Source of the DNA: a virus
IMG/VR virus record: IMGVR_UViG_3300022658_000327
Span: 1 to 39,517 of that record
DNA length: 39,517 bases
Direction: 5' to 3' (one strand)
Part shown: one piece after another, positions 17,154-31,294 of the stretch
How the letters are laid out: each line of letters starts with the position of its first letter
How positions within the stretch are numbered: the first letter of the stretch is position 1
Notes under the pieces: model-generated
Database searches by the model: none
Seen by the model: the letters and a program-made list of their open reading frames with translations, nothing else
What the model was told of the DNA's origin: nothing
Position numbers and translations under genes: made by a program

Positions 17154-17905
17154 AGCGTTTCGCCAGGCTCGCGGCCCAGCGGATCGTCCAGGCCGGCTTC
17201 CATCGGGATCTTGAGCACCTTGACGCGCTGGCCCGGGTGTTTCTTGATGTCCTCCAGCAATCGGCCGGCCAGGTCGTCTTCGTGCCAGCGGGTCATGATG
17301 ATGACGATGGCGCCGCCCGGCTTCAGGCGGGTCTGCAGGTCATCACGGAACCAGGCCCATTGCTTTTCGCGGATCGTCTCGCTGTCGGCTTCCTCTCGGC
17401 TCTTGACCGGGTCGTCAATCAGGATCAGATCGCCACGGCGACCGGTGATGGTGCCGCCGACACCGGCAGCAAAGTATTCTCCGCCTTTGGTGGTTTCCCA
17501 CCGCCCTGCAGCTGCCGACTCGGCTGACAGCTCGCTGTCCGGGAAGATGGAGCGGTGAGCCTGGCCGCCGACCAGTCCGCGGGAACGGCGCCCGAAGCGC
17601 TCGGCCAGCTCTCCGGTATTGGACGCGCAGATCACGCACTTGTGCGGATTCTTGCCCAGATACCAGGCCGGGAAGCCAACGGACGAATAAGTCGACTTCG
17701 CAGAGCCTGGCGGCATGGAGATGATCAGGACGTCCAGTTCTCCAGCTTCAACGCGCTCCAGCTCATGGATCAGCAGCTTGTGGTGCAACGCTGGCTCATA
17801 GTCCATCGTTGCGCGCACGTAATCGGCATAGCTGTCCTTGGCCCTGTCGTGCAACTGCTTTTCCAGCAGCTGCATCAGCTCCAGTCGGTCTTCAAGCGCG
17901 GCCAA
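16871..17905 (-). CDS. terL: Terminase large subunit, N-terminal ATPase part (frameshifted gene)
   Basis: Starts at a TTG at 17905 with a GGAGAGG-type ribosome site, 14 bp inside the small terminase gene. The Walker A region is MPPGSAKSTYSSVGF (about residue 64) and Walker B is DLILIDDPVKSREEAD (about 155), followed by the coupling segment VIIMTRWHEDDLAGRL. This is the packaging motor ATPase. Good sequence runs to EPRPIGGGEFK (about residue 290), after which the frame is lost to RNGCSIG and a nonsense tail. The full gene would be 16422-17905, about 495 residues. Confidence 0.85.
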   Translation of the reverse strand: MAALEDRLELMQLLEKQLHDRAKDSYADYVRATMDYEPALHHKLLIHELERVEAGELDVLIISMPPGSAKSTYSSVGFPAWYLGKNPHKCVICASNTGELAERFGRRSRGLVGGQAHRSIFPDSELSAESAAAGRWETTKGGEYFAAGVGGTITGRRGDLILIDDPVKSREEADSETIREKQWAWFRDDLQTRLKPGGAIVIIMTRWHEDDLAGRLLEDIKKHPGQRVKVLKIPMEAGLDDPLGREPGETLWPEWFTPEMVAIAKREPRTWSALYQQEPRPIGGGEFKRNGCSIGDAPQWSARRSCWSIHHPARARPAATSPACGWSAWGQTGTITLSTASATA

Positions 17906-18536
17906 GCTTCCTCTCCAACTCAGCGATGCGCGCGTCCACGTCTTCAGGACTCAATTTGTCCAGAGGATTGACGCCCTTACCCTTGTCGTCGGCGTCCAGG
18001 CCGTAGGCTTTGCGCTCCAGCTCGACCAGCGTCTTCAGCGTGTCGGCCAGCTTCTTCATGCTGTCCACGCGCTGCGGAAGGCTGATGACCTTGCGGTAAA
18101 TCTCATTCAGCCGGTCGACACCCTTGTCGTCCTCGCGGCGCATCAGCTCGCCCAGTTCATCCAGGATGTCGGCGTTTTCAGTCTGCCCTTCCAGTTCCTG
18201 GAGCAACTTGGTCGTCAACTCACGATTGCGGCGTATGTCCGAGCGGTGGGCCAGCCGGACGTCAGCAATCCGCATGGCGTTGGCTTCGATAACCTGCCGC
18301 TCGGTTGCAGCGGTTTCCGTGGAAACTTGGCTGGAAACCTCACGCTTGGAAACCAGTGCTTCAGCCTTGGCCTGGATCTTTGCCTGAAGGTCGCGTTCCC
18401 ATCCTTCAGCCTTGGCGCGCTTGTTGATGGCTGTATGCGAGATGCTGTGTGTGGCGGCGATCTCACGGACAGACAGAACACCAGCGCGATATTCAGTTTC
18501 AATTCGCTCCCAATCGGGAGCCTTCTTCTCAGTCAT
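17892..18536 (-). CDS. terS: Terminase small subunit
   Basis: 214 residues. The N-terminus holds a helix-turn-helix (ERIETEYRAGVLSVREIAAT, HSISHTAINKRAKAEGW) typical of small terminases that bind the packaging site. A long helical middle (KIQAKAEALVSK to about residue 150) should drive ring formation, and the C-terminus ends DARIAELERKLGRA, next to the large subunit it contacts. It overlaps the large terminase gene by 14 bp. It is the first protein gene after the structured late leader. Confidence 0.85.
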   Translation of the reverse strand: MTEKKAPDWERIETEYRAGVLSVREIAATHSISHTAINKRAKAEGWERDLQAKIQAKAEALVSKREVSSQVSTETAATERQVIEANAMRIADVRLAHRSDIRRNRELTTKLLQELEGQTENADILDELGELMRREDDKGVDRLNEIYRKVISLPQRVDSMKKLADTLKTLVELERKAYGLDADDKGKGVNPLDKLSPEDVDARIAELERKLGRA

Positions 18537-18739: not shown

Positions 18740-18773
18740 CAAAAAAGCCCCTGGGCATTTCTGCTCAGAGGCT
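18740..18773 (-). terminator. Terminator at the 3' end of the late structured RNA
   Basis: Minus strand AGCCTCTG pairs with CAGGGGCT around an inner stem and GAAA loop, followed by TTTTTT. It should define the 3' end of the RNA starting at promoter P4 unless an antiterminator acts. Confidence 0.85.
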
Positions 18774-19060
18774 TCTATGGGTTGATGGCCCCAGTGTCGT
18801 GACGCTACCTGGGTCGCAGCGGGAACGCCCTGCCTGGCACGGTGTCAAGCCGCTCATCGCGGGTTCCTCCGCTTTGGTGGCTGATGGCGCCCGGGAACCC
18901 CCAGGCCTGCTCATGGAAATGATCTTATGGGGGTCTAAATCCCCCGCCATGTCGCTTGACCATCACAGCTGCAACCTGACCGCCAGGGCGGTTGGCGCTC
19001 CATGCCATTACCCGCTTGGAGCCAATGGGCTGACTCGTCTGCAGGCTATCAAGCCGCATG

Positions 19061-19090
19061 TGTGATGGCCCCAGTCTTTCCTGGGTGTCA
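19061..19090 (-). ncRNA. 30-nt hairpin element, late copy
   Basis: On the minus strand: TGACA, stem CCCAG, loop GAAAGA, stem CTGGG, then GCCATCACA. TGA and TCA can close an outer stem, leaving internal loops CA and GCCA. The same element occurs on the plus strand at 27685-27714 with two differences, both in one base pair. Its last eight bases can pair with TGTGATGG at 18967-18960. Confidence 0.75.
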
Positions 19091-19113: not shown

Positions 19114-19181
19114 CCGGGCGTGGAGGACTCTCGATACCTTACGGTTTCGGCCTCAGTGGCCTCATCAGTCGAGTTGCCCGG
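19114..19181 (-). ncRNA. Hammerhead ribozyme (stem I open)
   Basis: All core elements are present on the minus strand. Stem I: CTCGA (19173-19169) with TCGAG (19134-19130), extended by CCGGGC (19181-19176) with GCCCGG (19119-19114). Core CTGATGA at 19168-19162. Stem II: GGCC, loop ACTGA, GGCC (19161-19149). Core GAA then A (19148-19145). Stem III: ACC, loop GTAA, GGT. The cleavage triplet is GTA, so cleavage is expected after 19135. The internal loop AA / AGTCCTCCAC in stem I could contact loop II, as natural ribozymes need. The chance of all parts arising together is very small. Confidence 0.9.
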
Positions 19182-19317
19182 GCTTGACCTACCTATTCAC
19201 CAGCAGACGGGTAGGAAACGCTCATCCCCGTCTTTCCGAGGTGTCCGGCCTTGGGTGGCCTTCCCTGTGGTTCGCATGATCCGGCGCAGACCCACACAAA
19301 CTGCGGCCCGGTGCTCT

Positions 19318-19398
19318 TTGATGGCGGGCAGACTGTCCATCCTGCCGGCCTCCGGGTTGCCCCGGCGCTCTATCTAGGTTCTGAGCTACACCATCAAG
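19318..19398 (-). ncRNA. tRNA-like cloverleaf within the late RNA
   Basis: TTGATGGTG (starting 19397) pairs with CGCCATCAA (ending 19318) as a 9-bp closing helix. Inside are three hairpins: GCTC/GAGC, CCGGG-GCAA-CCCGG and GGCAG/CTGCC. The first 20 bases (GATGGTGTAGCTCAG) look like the 5' end of a tRNA, but the D-loop lacks GG, the middle hairpin has a 4-base loop and there is no T-loop. It is not a working tRNA; it may be a tRNA remnant or mimic. Confidence 0.5.
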
Positions 19399-19464
19399 GC
19401 TGAGGGCTGTAGGCCACGGTTTAAACGCCGAAGCAAGCCGCAACCCAACAACCCACAGTCTTGA

Positions 19465-19539
19465 TGGCTCCAAAGGCTGGGATCGAACCAGCGACCGACG
19501 GATTAACAGTCCGCTGCACTACCGCTGTGCTACCTTGGA
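19465..19539 (-). tRNA. tRNA-Asn (GUU) with encoded CCA
   Basis: Minus strand acceptor TCCAAGG (19539-19533) pairs with CTTTGGA (19475-19469), with one G-T pair, then discriminator G and CCA (19467-19465). D-arm GCAC/GTGC, anticodon arm GCGGA-CTGTTAA-TCCGT with anticodon GTT, variable CGGTC, and T-arm GCTGG-TTCGATC-CCAGC. All parts are regular. It is about 30 nt after the predicted start of promoter P4, so it would be the first product of the late transcript. Processing at CCA would release the 5' end of the structured RNA. Confidence 0.95.
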
Positions 19540-19608: not shown

Positions 19609-20070
19609 TCACAGCTCCATATCCGTGGCAAGTTTTTTCATGATGTTGCCTGCGACCATGCGCTCCAGGCTAGCCAAGTACTCGACCAGGTCGCGTTCGG
19701 CTTCACCCTCAATGGTCTTGCGTCCTGAACCTTGGCAGGCCGGGCAGACTTCATCGGACAGGATCGGTGTGTCGGGGATAACCTGGTATCCCCTGCCCTC
19801 GCAGTCGTCGCACCGGTCATTGGCGATGTGCTTCAGGACTTTGACAACCAGCCGGCGGTCGTACCCCATAACGATCAGCTGGCTGGCCAGGTAGAACACC
19901 TCACGGCGATCATCGGCGTACTTGAAACGCCACAGCGCCAAGCCGATCGGGTTGTCCTGGCCGGCCATTCCGCAGGCGCGGATGACGTCGATGTCGCCGA
20001 TCTCGTCGACGGGCACGTCACCCAGGTCTGAGGATGTCTGGGCGTAGGAGATGCGTTCGCGGGCGGTCAT
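19609..20070 (-). CDS. Zinc-finger protein, possible Q-type late antiterminator
   Basis: 153 residues from the ATG at 20070, which has a GAGG ribosome site; the longer frame starts inside another gene. Residues about 88-125 contain two CxxCxGxG knuckles (CDDCEGRGYQ and CPACQGSGRK), a zinc-binding pair like that of DnaJ. The N-terminal part is helical with LALWRFKYADDRREVFYLAS. Some phage Q proteins of the 82 type carry such a zinc motif. The gene is last in the early operon and lies directly before the late promoter, as Q does in lambdoid phages. The call rests on that position plus the zinc motif. Confidence 0.5.
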   Translation of the reverse strand: MTARERISYAQTSSDLGDVPVDEIGDIDVIRACGMAGQDNPIGLALWRFKYADDRREVFYLASQLIVMGYDRRLVVKVLKHIANDRCDDCEGRGYQVIPDTPILSDEVCPACQGSGRKTIEGEAERDLVEYLASLERMVAGNIMKKLATDMEL

Positions 20071-20192
20071 GCTTGCACCTCGGCAGAAGAACGGACGACC
20101 ATCGCGCAGGGAAAATCTCCGCAGCCATGATGCTTCGCTTGGCTTCCTGCTGGATCGCAGGCACATTTTCTGAAAGCATCTACGACTACCAT
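20067..20192 (-). CDS. 41-residue Cys/His-rich small protein
   Basis: A small gene between two larger ones. Its ATG overlaps the end of the 20186-20470 gene and its stop overlaps the ATG of the next gene (ATGA). The peptide starts MVVVDAFRKCACDPAG and has HHGCGDFPCAM, giving four Cys and two His that could bind zinc. The tight overlaps on both sides argue that it is translated. I do not recognise a family. Confidence 0.5.
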   Translation of the reverse strand: MVVVDAFRKCACDPAGSQAKHHGCGDFPCAMVVRSSAEVQA

Positions 20193-25538: not shown

Positions 25539-25739
25539 TCAGGCCTCCATGGGTTTGCGTTTGCGCTTGAGCTGCTTGAGCAGGGTTTCCAGCGCGATGT
25601 AGTTGCGAGCCAGTACGTCACGCACAGCCCCGCGTTCGATCTTGGAAATGGTCGACTGGGGTATGCCGGTGCGCTCTGCGACCTGCACCTGGGTTAGTCC
25701 GTATGCACGAACCTGACGAAGAAAATCCTGGGCGTTCAT
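25539..25739 (-). CDS. Cro-like repressor (XRE-type HTH)
   Basis: 66 residues. AYGLTQVQVAERTGIPQSTI, then SKIERGAVRDV is a complete XRE helix-turn-helix. It is the first gene of the early minus-strand operon and is transcribed away from CI, so it is the Cro counterpart. The ribosome site is AAGGA, 9 bp before the ATG. Its promoter (P5) is overlapped by a perfect inverted repeat that CI and this protein probably both bind. Confidence 0.85.
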   Translation of the reverse strand: MNAQDFLRQVRAYGLTQVQVAERTGIPQSTISKIERGAVRDVLARNYIALETLLKQLKRKRKPMEA

Positions 25740-25743
25740 CTGT

Positions 25744-25763
25744 AATAGTCCTTAACGACTATT
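25744..25763. promoter_or_regulatory. Operator for CI/Cro (inverted repeat)
   Basis: AATAGTC, 6-bp spacer CTTAAC, GACTATT: a perfect 7-bp inverted repeat covering the -10 and start of promoter P5. The same half-site recurs at 27077-27083, next to the start of the plus-strand early operon. Confidence 0.75.
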
Positions 25764-25789
25764 CTATCAAGTCGCATTCCCCTATTCAA
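25761..25789 (-). promoter_or_regulatory. Promoter P5 for the Cro-like/replication operon
   Basis: Minus strand -35 TTGAAT (25789-25784), 17-bp spacer with AGGGGAATGC, -10 TAGAAT (25766-25761). It is the strongest-looking promoter of the set and is covered by the operator. The GGGGAAT block is shifted one base compared with P1-P4. Confidence 0.8.
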
Positions 25790-25810
25790 GTGGGCTTGAA
25801 TGGCGACACC

Positions 25811-26500
25811 ATGGATACGTTGGCGAAACGACTACGTCATGCGCGTAAAGCGCGCAACCTCACGCAAGTAGAACTAGCAGAAAAGTCTGGCGTGGCCCAG
25901 TCAGACATTTCAAAAATTGAAAGAGGTGAAACCTTAAGCACCACTAAATTGGTTGCTCTATCAAATGCGCTAAATGTGAACCCAAACTGGTTGGACACCG
26001 GGGACGGTGAAATGACGCCGGCAGTGCGCTTGTTGCCTGGCGTCTCCCTTCGTATTGGTGCAATCAACCTCGACAATAATCCGGACTTTCCCGCAATAAG
26101 AAGAGTCAGGTTCAAATTGTCAGCAGGTGCTTCAGGCTTCGGGGTTGACTATGCCGATGAGGACGGCGACCCTATCGTTTTTCGCAAAGTGTGGTTTGAA
26201 AAGAATGGCTATGAGCCCGATCGGCTCTTTGCTGTCCGCGTGGCCAATGGCTCCATGGAGCCAGGGCTGTACGACGGGGACACGGTAGTCGTCAACACAC
26301 AAAGTGCAACCCCCAAGGATGGCACGGTCTTCGCCGTGAACTACGAGGGCGAGATGGTCATCAAGCGATTGATCAGAGACGCCGGCCAGTGGTGGCTGGC
26401 CTCTGACAACCCAGACCAGAGGCGGTATCCCCGCAAGGTGTGCGACGAGAACTCCATCATCATCGGAGAGATCGTGCACAAGCAGTCAGAGAGGATCTGA
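25811..26500 (+). CDS. cI: CI-type phage repressor (HTH plus S24 peptidase)
   Basis: 229 residues from the ATG at 25811; an open frame reaches back to 25703 but crosses the operator. Residues about 1-65 hold the XRE helix-turn-helix (NLTQVELAEKSGVAQSDISK). The C-terminal domain is a LexA/CI-type S24 peptidase with Ser148 in VANGSMEPGLYDGD and Lys185 in GEMVIKRLIRD. A likely self-cleavage site is Ala105-Gly106 in KLSAGASGF. The protein keeps the prophage silent and should be cleaved when RecA is activated. Its codon use is less GC-rich at the N-terminus than that of its neighbours. Confidence 0.9.
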   Translation: MDTLAKRLRHARKARNLTQVELAEKSGVAQSDISKIERGETLSTTKLVALSNALNVNPNWLDTGDGEMTPAVRLLPGVSLRIGAINLDNNPDFPAIRRVRFKLSAGASGFGVDYADEDGDPIVFRKVWFEKNGYEPDRLFAVRVANGSMEPGLYDGDTVVVNTQSATPKDGTVFAVNYEGEMVIKRLIRDAGQWWLASDNPDQRRYPRKVCDENSIIIGEIVHKQSERI

Positions 26501-27649: not shown

Positions 27650-27784
27650 GAGCAAGAAAGTTGGACGTAAAAGCACAGTTGCTCTGACACCCCGGAAAGA
27701 CGGGGGCCATCACATAGGTCAACTCTGGATGACGACCGAACACAAAAGCCTAGTCAGCTTAGTGGGAGTTGGCCTCTGTGATGG
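27650..27784 (+). ncRNA. Structured RNA element, early copy of the 30-nt hairpin
   Basis: Plus strand, in a gene-free stretch. GAGCAA (27650-27655) pairs with TTGCTC (27679-27684). Then the 30-nt element at 27685-27714: TGACA, stem CCCCG, loop GAAAGA, stem CGGGG, GCCATCACA. Its end CCATCACA (27707-27714) pairs with TGTGATGG (27777-27784), and inside that GGTCAACTC (27717-27725) pairs with GAGTTGGCC (27766-27774), giving 17 bp of long-range helix. The inner loop has AAGC/GCTT. The late-leader copy keeps the element and the 8-bp helix. Confidence 0.75.
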
Positions 27785-28017
27785 TGAATGCGCAGGCTGA
27801 TGCGCAACGGAATTAAGGGCCGCGCAAGAGTACGTGGGAATGCAGGCAGCGGACAAAAAAGCAGACCCCCATGCCGGAGATCAGCACCGGCCACCATCAA
27901 CCTTTATGACCGAAAGCGGATGCTGGTAAGTGTCACCCCACTAAGGGTGACCGTCATATGCAACCAGACGCAGCGAGTAGGTCACCCACTTTCCTCCCTG
28001 GCCTCTACGAGGCTTTC
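27785..28017 (+). other. Gene-free stretch between the RNA element and the next terminator
   Basis: No convincing gene. It has a hairpin GTCACCC/GGGTGAC (27932-27951) and only very short open frames. It may be the 3' part of the structured RNA that ends at the 28018-28052 terminator. Confidence 0.4.
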
Positions 28018-28052
28018 GCCCCGGCATCTTGTGGTGTCGGGGCTTTTTCTTT
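28018..28052 (+). terminator. Intrinsic terminator before the 28063 gene
   Basis: GCCCCG with CGGGGC around a CATCTTGTGGTG-type loop, followed by TTTTTCTTT. The next ATG is at 28063, and its ribosome site GGAG lies just after the T-tract. Confidence 0.85.
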
Positions 28053-28908: not shown

Positions 28909-29673
28909 ATGAGCAACATCGTCCTGGCCCAGACCACAAAGCTGGCCAAAACACTGGGAATGGAAGTCGACAGCGCAGAGCTGGTCGCCACCCTCAAAGC
29001 CACCGCCTTCAAGGGGCAAGTCAGCGATGCGCAGATGAGCGCCCTGCTGATTGTCGCCAACCAGTACGGGCTCAATCCCTGGACCAAGGAAATCTATGCG
29101 TTCCCCGACAAGAACAACGGCATTGTGCCGGTCGTCGGGGTGGATGGCTGGTCGCGCATCATCAACAGCCACCCGCAATTTGACGGTATGGATTTCCTGC
29201 AGGATGCCGAGAGCTGCACCTGCATCATTTACCGCAAGGACCGCACCCACCCCATCAAGGTGACGGAGTGGATGTCCGAGTGCTCACGCAACACCGGCCC
29301 ATGGCAGAGCCATCCCAAGCGCATGTTGCGGCACAAGGCCATGATCCAGTGCGCGCGCCTGGCATTTGGTTTCGTCGGCATCTTCGACCAGGACGAGGCC
29401 GAGCGCATCGTCCAGACGATTGACCCAAGCACCGGGGAAATCAGCCGGGCCGAGCCAGCGCGACCTGCACTGCAGGCTTATCCAGACGCCGATTTCAAGG
29501 CCAACCTGGAAAGCTGGCGCACCGTCATTCAATCCGGCCGCAAAACCCCTGATGACCTGATCGCAATGATCAGCACCAAAGGGACTCTGAGCGACCGACA
29601 AAAGCAAGACATCCGCAACTTGGCAGCCGTTGATGTCGATGCCAGCCAACCCGCCACCGTAGAGGAAAACTGA
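28909..29673 (+). CDS. bet: RecT/Bet-family single-strand annealing recombinase
   Basis: 254 residues. FKGQVSDAQMSALLIVANQY, GLNPWTKEIYAFPDKNNGIV, PVVGVDGWSRIINSHPQFDG and MIQCARLAFGFVGIFDQDEA are the conserved core of Bet-type annealing proteins. It pairs complementary single strands during recombination and works with the exonuclease encoded next. The stop is 1 bp before the exonuclease ATG, so the pair is co-expressed. Confidence 0.95.
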   Translation: MSNIVLAQTTKLAKTLGMEVDSAELVATLKATAFKGQVSDAQMSALLIVANQYGLNPWTKEIYAFPDKNNGIVPVVGVDGWSRIINSHPQFDGMDFLQDAESCTCIIYRKDRTHPIKVTEWMSECSRNTGPWQSHPKRMLRHKAMIQCARLAFGFVGIFDQDEAERIVQTIDPSTGEISRAEPARPALQAYPDADFKANLESWRTVIQSGRKTPDDLIAMISTKGTLSDRQKQDIRNLAAVDVDASQPATVEEN

Positions 29674-29674
29674 A

Positions 29675-31294
29675 ATGCGTATCGTCAATTTGATCCAGGG
29701 CAGTCCCGAGTGGCTGGCCCACCGCGCCGAGCACTTCAACGCCAGCGATGCGCCGGCCATGATGGGCGTCTCGTCCTACAAGACTCGCACCCAGCTGATG
29801 ACCGAAATTAAGACGGGCGTGTCACCAGAAATTGACGCTGCAACCCAGCGAATTTTTGACGACGGCCACCGTTTTGAAGCACTGGCCCGACCGCTGGCTG
29901 AAAAGATCATCGGCCAGGATCTGTACCCAGTCGTCGGCGCCGAAGGAAAGATGAGCGCATCGTTTGATGGCATCACGCTGGACGAGTCGATTGCGTTTGA
30001 GCACAAGACACTCAACGCCAAGCTGCGCGAATCGTTTGACGACATCAACACCGTCGCTCCAGATTGGCGCGAAACCGCCGGCGACAAGCTGCCGATTGAG
30101 TACCGTGTCCAGATGGAGCACCAGGCCATGGTAAGCCAGTGCAAAAAAATACTGTTCATGGCCAGCCGCTGGAACGGCCAGGAACTTGTAGAGATGCGCC
30201 ACGTCTGGTACATCCCCAACCCAGAGTTGCGCAAGCAGATACAAAACGGATGGGCACAGCTGATCCTGGACTTGCAAGACTTCACGCCGGAAATCAAGCA
30301 GGCTGCACCGGTCGGCCGAGCACCAGACCAGCTACCGGCATTGACCGTGTCGATCCGCGGCGAAGTGGCAGCATCCAACCTGGCCGAATTCAAGGCTGTC
30401 GCGCTGGGTGCTATCGAGGCGGTCAACACCGACCTACAGACAGACCAGGATTTCGCCGACGCTGAAAAGGCCGTCAAGTGGTGTGAAGAAGTTGAGTCGC
30501 GCCTGAAGGCTGCCAAGGAGCATGCGCAAGGCCAGGCTGCGAGTATCGACGAACTTTTCCGCACGATGGACGCGATCGCGGCGGAAGCGCGCGCCAAGCG
30601 CCTGGAACTGGACAAGCTGGTCAAGTCGCGCAAGGAACAGATCCGCAACGACATCGTCTGGGGTGCACAGACAGACCTGCGCGATCACGTCGCCAAGCTG
30701 AATGCCCGTATCGGTCGCCAGTTGGTGGCCATGCCATCGGCTGACTTTGGAGGCGTCATCAAAGGCAAGCGCAGCCTTGACAGCATCAAGGCATCAGTCG
30801 ACGAAGAACTGGCCCGGGTAAAGCTGGCTGCCAATGATGTCGCCGACCGCATTGAGATCAACCTGAAAAAGTTGACAGTCGAAAACGAATTCCTGTTTCC
30901 TGATCTTGCCAGTGTCGTTACCAAGGAAGCCGACGACTTCACCAACCTGCTGGCCATGCGAGTGAATGCACACCGTGATGCAGAGGAAATCCGGCGTGAA
31001 AGCGCTCAGGCCGATGCGATCGCAGCGGCACAGGTAGCGGCACAGGTTGTTCAAAAGGCCTCCCGGCCTGCCATCAAAGTTGAGCCTGTCACCTCAGAGA
31101 GACTGGTCAAACTGGGCGAGATCCAGAGCCTCCTGGCTCCCATCCAGATCACCGCTGACGGACTGGCTCAGCTGGGTTTCCCGCACGTCGACAAGGATGG
31201 GGCTTCAAAACTCTACCGCGCCGACTCTTTTGACGACATCTGCCAGGCGCTGATCCAGCACCTGCAAACCGTTTCTTCCACTCAACACGCCTAA
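29675..31294 (+). CDS. YqaJ-family (lambda-exo-like) recombination exonuclease
   Basis: 539 residues. The nuclease part is the first 210 or so: QGSPEWLAHRAEHFNASDAP, GVSSYKTRTQLM, FEALARPLAEKI with the first acidic residue, SFDGITLDESIAFEHKTLNA with the D...ExK site, and YRVQMEHQAMVSQCKKILFM. It should digest one strand of duplex ends to feed the Bet protein. Residues about 250-539 are mostly helical coiled coil (VKWCEEVESRLKAAKEHAQG), an extension seen in some phage exonucleases, of unknown role. Confidence 0.9.
   Translation: MRIVNLIQGSPEWLAHRAEHFNASDAPAMMGVSSYKTRTQLMTEIKTGVSPEIDAATQRIFDDGHRFEALARPLAEKIIGQDLYPVVGAEGKMSASFDGITLDESIAFEHKTLNAKLRESFDDINTVAPDWRETAGDKLPIEYRVQMEHQAMVSQCKKILFMASRWNGQELVEMRHVWYIPNPELRKQIQNGWAQLILDLQDFTPEIKQAAPVGRAPDQLPALTVSIRGEVAASNLAEFKAVALGAIEAVNTDLQTDQDFADAEKAVKWCEEVESRLKAAKEHAQGQAASIDELFRTMDAIAAEARAKRLELDKLVKSRKEQIRNDIVWGAQTDLRDHVAKLNARIGRQLVAMPSADFGGVIKGKRSLDSIKASVDEELARVKLAANDVADRIEINLKKLTVENEFLFPDLASVVTKEADDFTNLLAMRVNAHRDAEEIRRESAQADAIAAAQVAAQVVQKASRPAIKVEPVTSERLVKLGEIQSLLAPIQITADGLAQLGFPHVDKDGASKLYRADSFDDICQALIQHLQTVSSTQHA

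Follow-up and report, generated by a model that had tools for sequence, protein, structure and literature searches.

The window analysed here is the whole 39,517-nucleotide stretch of IMG/VR virus record IMGVR_UViG_3300022658_000327. It contains two arrays of structured RNA modules on opposite strands, whose features and positions are listed in Table 1. The array on the minus strand (the late array) follows a weakly identified Q-like gene, and is itself followed by a terminator-like hairpin and the terminase and portal genes. The array on the plus strand (the early array) follows a CI-like repressor gene and is followed by a terminator-like hairpin and the RecT and RecE genes. Both arrays contain a small hairpin, which we refer to as hairpin A. 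The strand that immediately follows it, S1, can pair with a second strand, S2, to form helix P1, and S2 can alternatively pair with a third strand, S3, to form helix P2.

Table 1. Features of the two arrays and of the genes that flank them in the window, with strand in brackets.
Feature	Position	Description or evidence
Terminase small subunit gene	17892..18536 (-)	First late gene behind array; phrog_1206, E 1e-76
Intrinsic-terminator-like hairpin and U run	18741..18775 (-)	End of late leader array; sequence
CCAUCA unit	18783..18814 (-)	Another such unit, with CCCAG...CUGGG hairpin in front; sequence
TLS2, cloverleaf-like tRNA-like module	18880..18966 (-)	T-arm-like hairpin flush on GCCAUCA; fold
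S2 strand, minus copy	18958..18967 (-)	UGUGAUGGUC; fold
S1 strand, minus copy	19061..19068 (-)	CCAUCACA; pairs with 18967-18960
Hairpin A, minus copy	19069..19090 (-)	UGACA-CCCAG-GAAAGA-CUGGG-G; covariance model match, E 2.6e-7
HH9-like hammerhead ribozyme core	19130..19173 (-)	Between third and minus copies of hairpin A; Rfam RF02275, 17.7 bits (gathering 52)
Hairpin A, third, degenerate copy	19224..19246 (-)	GGACACCUCGGAAAGACGGGGA; covariance model match at 19245-19224, E 0.0019
TLS1	19316..19397 (-)	MFE cloverleaf: 9-bp acceptor, 4-bp D arm, 5-bp anticodon arm with GCAA tetraloop, T arm flush
P1 hairpin starting at CCA of tRNA-Asn	19391..19467 (-)	CCAUCAAG...CUUGAUGG; seen through related locus L014, identical here
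tRNA-Asn(GUU)	19465..19539 (-)	ARAGORN and Rfam; occupies hairpin A slot in first unit of late array
Antitermination Q-like gene (weak)	19609..20166 (-)	Upstream of late array; phrog_127, E 9.6e-6
CI-like repressor gene	25703..26500 (+)	Upstream of early array; phrog_4, E 8.6e-54
Hairpin A, plus copy	27685..27706 (+)	UGACA-CCCCG-GAAAGA-CGGGG-G; covariance model match, E 7.8e-8
S1 strand	27707..27714 (+)	CCAUCACA; begins with CCA, 5' side of P1; pairs with 27777-27784
Insert enclosed by P1	27715..27776 (+)	P1 and inner stem together 19 bp; fold
S2 strand	27777..27786 (+)	UGUGAUGGUG; pairs with S1 (P1) or S3 (P2)
tRNA-like module, plus array	27779..27899 (+)	Acceptor-like P2 (UGAUGGUG/CACCAUCA), AA, D-arm-like hairpin 27789-27806, T-arm-like hairpin 27873-27891 flush on acceptor
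Further recurring module	27910..27979 (+)	CGAAAGCGGAUGCUG...CAGACGCAGCGAGUA; behind tRNA-like module; relatives in L041, L043, L048 and L052
Intrinsic-terminator-like hairpin and U run	28018..28050 (+)	End of early leader array; overlaps terminator part of Rfam anti-hemB, below gathering
RecT-like and RecE-like genes	28909..31294 (+)	Early operon behind array; phrog_252, E 2.5e-90; phrog_7655, E 3.9e-178

A sequence-only reading of the window had described two 30-nt elements, TGACACCCAGGAAAGACTGGGGCCATCACA at 19090-19061 (-) and TGACACCCCGGAAAGACGGGGGCCATCACA at 27685-27714 (+), as agreeing at 28 of 30 positions with one compensatory pair. Comparison of the sequences gives the same result: the two mismatches, at positions 9 (A/C) and 18 (T/G), are paired with each other. 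A covariance model recovers both with the E values given in Table 1, the two copies being themselves members of the model that scores them, and it also finds a previously unreported third copy. The 8-bp helix said to follow both copies is present in both MFE folds, but its first strand, CCATCACA, belongs to the 30-mer and makes up its final 8 nt. This strand pairs with TGTGATGG at 27777-27784 (+), which lies 62 nt downstream, and at 18967-18960 (-), about 90 nt downstream. An outer UGA/UCA pairing across CA/GCCA internal loops had also been suggested. This has no family support, as CCATCA is present in just 43 of 135 homologues, and it is incompatible with the CCAUCACA/UGUGAUGG helix.

Relatives of hairpin A were identified using patterns in which the loop and its flanks were fixed and the stem was left free, and they occur in over 100 viral contigs besides this one. 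The stem-free pattern TGACANNNNGGAAAGACNNNNNCCATCA gave 44 matches in the viral contig collection, with 10 different stems, and all four free pairs are complementary in 44 of 44. A looser pattern ending in RCCA (UGACA-N4-G-GAAAGA-C-N4'-R-CCA) gave 142 matches with 34 stems, 135 of them fully paired. A similarly long pattern written for another hairpin, the D-arm, matched mostly by chance and serves as a negative control. It was fully paired in 15 of 93 matches, a subset that still contains several stem types, showing that the pattern search does not by itself produce pairing. The pairing in hairpin A is far above chance.

Covariation in the stem is correspondingly strong. Among 39 distinct sequences, 99.5% of the cells are paired compared to 64.4% after shuffling, there are 61 double changes compared to 15.1, and the covariation score is 0.906, compared to 0.197 for shuffled and at most 0.126 for slid alignments; this alignment omits five rows that match the pattern, four with unpaired cells and one that duplicates the window sequence. 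The full set of 43 distinct sequences contains 8 G-U cells and 2 A-C cells, a bias that indicates an RNA on the hairpin A strand. Together, the covariation and this bias refute the alternative of a repeat without paired changes or a mobile DNA palindrome, the outcomes that would have spoken against the sequence-only reading. Its proposal of a conserved RNA structure in two different transcripts of one phage is supported, with selection acting on the RNA in the orientation of hairpin A. Conservation of the loop and of the preceding UGACA is weaker evidence, since it is imposed by the search patterns, but the GAAAGA loop or GGAGAGAC is seen again in loci found via another module, and (U/G)GACA precedes it in almost every case.

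We conclude that hairpin A is a phage-specific RNA module in which a purine and CCA come after a 5-bp stem with a GAAAGA loop. It resembles a miniature tRNA 3' end, that is, a T-arm-like hairpin followed by a discriminator and CCA, although in comparison with a canonical tRNA the T-arm-like hairpin and RCCA are all that it contains. Rfam 15 at the gathering score matched only the tRNA in the window; permissive Rfam scans of both arrays placed no family over hairpin A, and scans of 16 related loci returned tRNA, C4, and isrK only. In a blastn search against the phage collection, the minus array was matched by way of its tRNA-Asn only and the plus array had no match. One copy of hairpin A is present in a Delftia MAG, and a search of 400 bacterial genomes related to it gave nothing beyond that seed copy.

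The CCAUCACA tail of hairpin A opens a 14-20 bp helix that is closed by UGUGAUGG. We analysed S1 in 107 distinct loci. A long downstream complement was found in 51 of these and an upstream complement in 25, and the mean score of the complement is 14.2 compared to 8.9 for shuffled sequence; 48 of the 107 hairpin A copies have no clear partner strand inside the scanned range. The P1 stem, comprising S1/S2 together with the inner stem, is mostly 14-20 bp long with a median of 17, and reaches at least 17 bp in 33 of the 51. The inserts enclosed by P1 differ. One insert domain (UGGAUGACGACCGAAC...GCCUNGUCAGC) is common to the window at 27730-27760 (+) and to locus L030 near 1840, in arrays that are otherwise different, which suggests that inserts form families too. 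In L007, L010, L011, and L012 there is a tRNA-like insert directly behind hairpin A, which has a canonical T arm and an anticodon loop of only 3 nt and is enclosed by a perfect 15-bp extension of P1; in L010 and L012 it is matched by the Rfam tRNA model at 47-49 bits. The insert stems of the enteric arrays L020-L138 are often of the form AAGAGCA...UGCUCUUU, where the 3' strand resembles boxA (YGCUCUUU), perhaps by coincidence.

S2 can alternatively pair downstream, where it would form the acceptor stem of a cloverleaf-like RNA that has no normal anticodon loop. In the plus array S2 is followed by AA, a hairpin UGCGC-AGGCUGAU-GCGCA, a variable stretch, and a hairpin GCCGG...CCGGC that is flush on CACCAUCA, which is likewise complementary to S2. 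An exact 24-mer of this tRNA-like module, TGGTGAATGCGCAGGCTGATGCGC, occurs in at least 120 stretches. In approximately 96 viral loci, two pairs of the acceptor-like stem beyond UGGUG/CACCA covary (89/96 and 86/96 paired, with 0 of 2000 shuffles as good), a third covaries weakly, and a fourth does not. The stem is therefore 7-8 bp long, as in tRNA. The downstream module thus shares with canonical tRNA a covarying acceptor of this length, a 2-nt linker, and D-like and T-like hairpins with the T-like hairpin flush on the acceptor, whereas a canonical anticodon arm was found in 0 of 102 modules. An encoded CCA at the 3' end is only occasional, and was therefore rejected as a universal feature of the downstream module. 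P1 and P2 are mutually exclusive; in eight arrays the predicted energies of the two differ by 0.6-10 kcal/mol, and P1 is usually favoured.

The late array contains two further cloverleaf-like modules. TLS1 is, in its predicted fold, unable to decode. TLS2 has a 7-nt loop, AUUUAGA, on a 5-bp stem, which as an anticodon would read UUA (a UAA suppressor); ARAGORN calls no tRNA here.

The slot that hairpin A occupies can also be filled by a genuine tRNA. In the first unit of the late array, the terminal CCA of the tRNA-Asn begins the strand CCAUCAAG, whose pairing partner CUUGAUGG lies where TLS1 starts. For six tRNAs, among them the tRNA-Asn of the window (seen through L014), the CCA-trailer has a complementary strand downstream, and in four cases the complementarity extends over 12 nt; at a loose threshold 1.6 would be expected. 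In other phages, genes for tRNA-Glu, Lys, Thr, and Cys have such a CCA-led hairpin, with 11-12 nt of complementarity. In L241 and L242, a hairpin of the CCAUAUUGAA type (CCAUAU...) is found behind a tRNA in one unit and behind hairpin A in another. Hairpins with different loops occupy the slot at further loci. Given these occupants, hairpin A is best read as the minimal CCA-ended unit. The arrays thus alternate between CCA-ended units (a tRNA, hairpin A, or other hairpins), long hairpins running from CCA to UGG, and cloverleaf-like modules that reuse the same strand as an acceptor.

The hammerhead-like element of the late array precedes the minus copy of hairpin A by 40 nt. Its core, CUGAUGA...GAAA, together with stem II, a short stem III, and a 5-bp stem I, was found by script, and its Rfam score is below gathering. 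In L159 a hammerhead lies directly behind one hairpin A and ahead of another, so that a hammerhead adjoins hairpin A in two unrelated arrays. The HH9-like subtype is also present inside a tRNA cluster in L269 and in another phage leader in L270-L272. It occurs in only 6 contigs, representing about four independent settings, and we therefore rejected the hammerhead as a general partner of the arrays. Compared with Hammerhead HH9 (RF02275), what the window shares is the HH9-like core, which is a neighbouring module and not hairpin A itself.

We also compared the positions of the arrays in related loci. Among co-oriented upstream neighbours, repressor (CI) families account for 19 of 102 and Pfam Q families for 12 of 102. 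Neither figures in the list of 25 families for control genes lying about 3.5 kb away. On the downstream side, the neighbours include holins and, in 5 of 104 cases, N-like antiterminators. Terminator-like sites lie behind 38 of 100 modules, compared to 23 on the reverse strand and 11 of 80 upstream. The B module is co-oriented with its neighbouring genes (71 versus 24 downstream). A related module lies between pR' and the annotated terminator tQ in HK620, between Q and the lysis genes in phiEt88, ES2, and E. coli HS, and near the CI repressor in mEp460 and CSP3. Lytic Ackermannviridae, Schitoviridae, and siphoviruses carry a related module as well, often near tRNAs. Most phages have one local cluster and not one per operon.

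Our best reading is that hairpin A is a minihairpin resembling a tRNA 3' end, within a leader-encoded, processed RNA that mimics tRNA. It builds on features that were computed: the hairpin stem, the CCA...UGG helix, the 7-8 bp acceptor, the alternation of units, the interchange with tRNA, and the location in early and late leaders before terminator-like hairpins. The array would be transcribed as a leader RNA, and the 14-20 bp CCA...UGG hairpins and the hammerhead would be processing sites at which it is cut into units. Hairpin A, as a mimic of a tRNA 3' end, would stack on the CCA...UGG helix and control its pairing, and the released tRNA-like RNAs would act by engaging a tRNA-binding host factor. 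We put the probability that the leader is cut in this way into units that engage a tRNA-binding factor at about 0.5. The variation in loop type of the slot hairpin between loci counts against this reading, and the GAAAGA loop may have a role of its own beyond processing. The hairpin A copies with no clear partner strand, the merely occasional CCA at the end of the downstream module, and the rarity and low Rfam score of the hammerhead also weigh against it. More tentatively, the arrays could represent an undescribed kind of phage leader RNA that is widespread. Its minihairpins with a CCA end, genuine tRNAs, and cloverleaves unable to decode would use a common acceptor strand and could switch between P1 and P2, and the RNA would act either as a co-transcriptional switch or against the host, in both early and late operons.

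The sequence-only reading had favoured a functional RNA, perhaps a protein-binding or antitermination site. The positions support a regulatory role to this extent: the arrays are in leaders before terminator-like hairpins, with Q-like and CI-like genes upstream, and this recurs across phages. A stand-alone site does not survive, since hairpin A is one module of a tRNA-like array, and elsewhere its slot holds other hairpins or real tRNAs. An antitermination role would have hairpin A or the whole array act as a nut/boxB-like or put-like RNA, modifying RNA polymerase to pass the terminators behind the arrays and so to express the operons of both phases. The small stem and GA-rich loop of hairpin A are reminiscent of boxB, the position of the window arrays between operon start and terminator-like hairpin fits a nut/boxB site, and the placement of the HK620 module, the CI, Q, and N-like neighbours, and the excess of terminator-like sites behind the modules all point the same way. 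We nevertheless consider this role unlikely. HK620 and the E. coli HS prophage possess their own Q for the same terminator, the single local cluster of most phages is not what one array per operon would give, the occupation of the slot by tRNAs and other hairpins counts against it, and a Q- or N-type function is less natural in or near the tRNA clusters of lytic phages. HK022, the phage of the put RNAs, lacks every module motif sought and has GGAAAGAC only without the hairpin, and the idea of a put RNA was therefore rejected.

Retention of the acceptor/D/T elbow without the decoding loop would also suit a decoy, in which anticodon-less tRNA mimics and CCA-ended hairpins titrate host factors that bind or cleave tRNA, such as anti-phage tRNA nucleases, in both the early and the late phase of infection. 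The modules are highly modular, diverse, and phage-specific, and lie in leaders that are expected to be well expressed. However, one module is strongly conserved across phages of Burkholderiales, Xanthomonadaceae, and enteric bacteria, which suggests one conserved partner and not diversified decoys, and we consider titration unlikely. There is least to recommend a mobile or recombinogenic DNA palindrome, in which CCATCA/TGATGG inverted repeats are recombination sites that swap tRNA cassettes and the RNA structure is incidental. The inserts between the repeats do vary widely in type and length, and the arrays look mosaic. Against this, the strand-specific bias for G-U over A-C, the co-orientation of the B module with its neighbours, the grammar of loop and flanks, and the leader position all indicate RNA, and we regard the palindrome as very unlikely indeed. 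The function of the arrays is directly testable, because laboratory phages and strains (HK620 and the E. coli HS prophage) carry a related module. The arrays point to a common, unannotated layer of RNA in temperate and lytic phages of Proteobacteria: leader arrays that mimic the ends of tRNAs but do not decode, interspersed with genuine tRNAs and in some cases a hammerhead, at the control points of early and late operons.

Several known systems resemble the arrays in part. The lambda nut/boxB and HK022 put RNAs are likewise small RNA hairpins in early or late leaders before terminators, but hairpin A belongs to a tRNA-like array. Theta ribozymes, which are HDV-like and associated with phage tRNAs, are thought to aid 3'-end formation, and are similarly catalytic or structured RNAs beside phage tRNAs (PMC10879173). 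They differ in that the candidate ribozyme beside hairpin A is hammerhead-like, and its neighbouring RNAs are for the most part not decoding tRNAs; a permissive cmscan found no match of the Rfam HDV clan over the arrays. No description of the element was found in the open-access literature, where the module sequences do not appear in the text of papers and the RAGATH papers are not about hairpin A. A preprint on the Pas sRNA was discarded, as it mentions tRNA-like sequences only as integration remnants. The stable RNAs of T4, species 1 and 2 (rnaC and rnaD), are, like the arrays, small structured RNAs encoded by a phage beside tRNAs, and rnaC, annotated as a small stable RNA, ends in a canonical T-arm sequence (CCGGGTTCGAATCCCGG). 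They lack hairpin A, hairpin spacers of the CCA...UGG kind, and a shared acceptor strand, and they lie in a tRNA cluster, in contrast to the CI or Q leader position of the arrays described here. Phage stable RNAs beside tRNAs are therefore already known, whereas arrays with hairpin A have neither an Rfam family nor an open-access description. A stretch of about 3 kb in Klebsiella phage UPM 2146 (L139, 2400-5740) has no annotated genes; it lies beside a tRNA cluster and is made up of long hairpins and pieces resembling tRNA.
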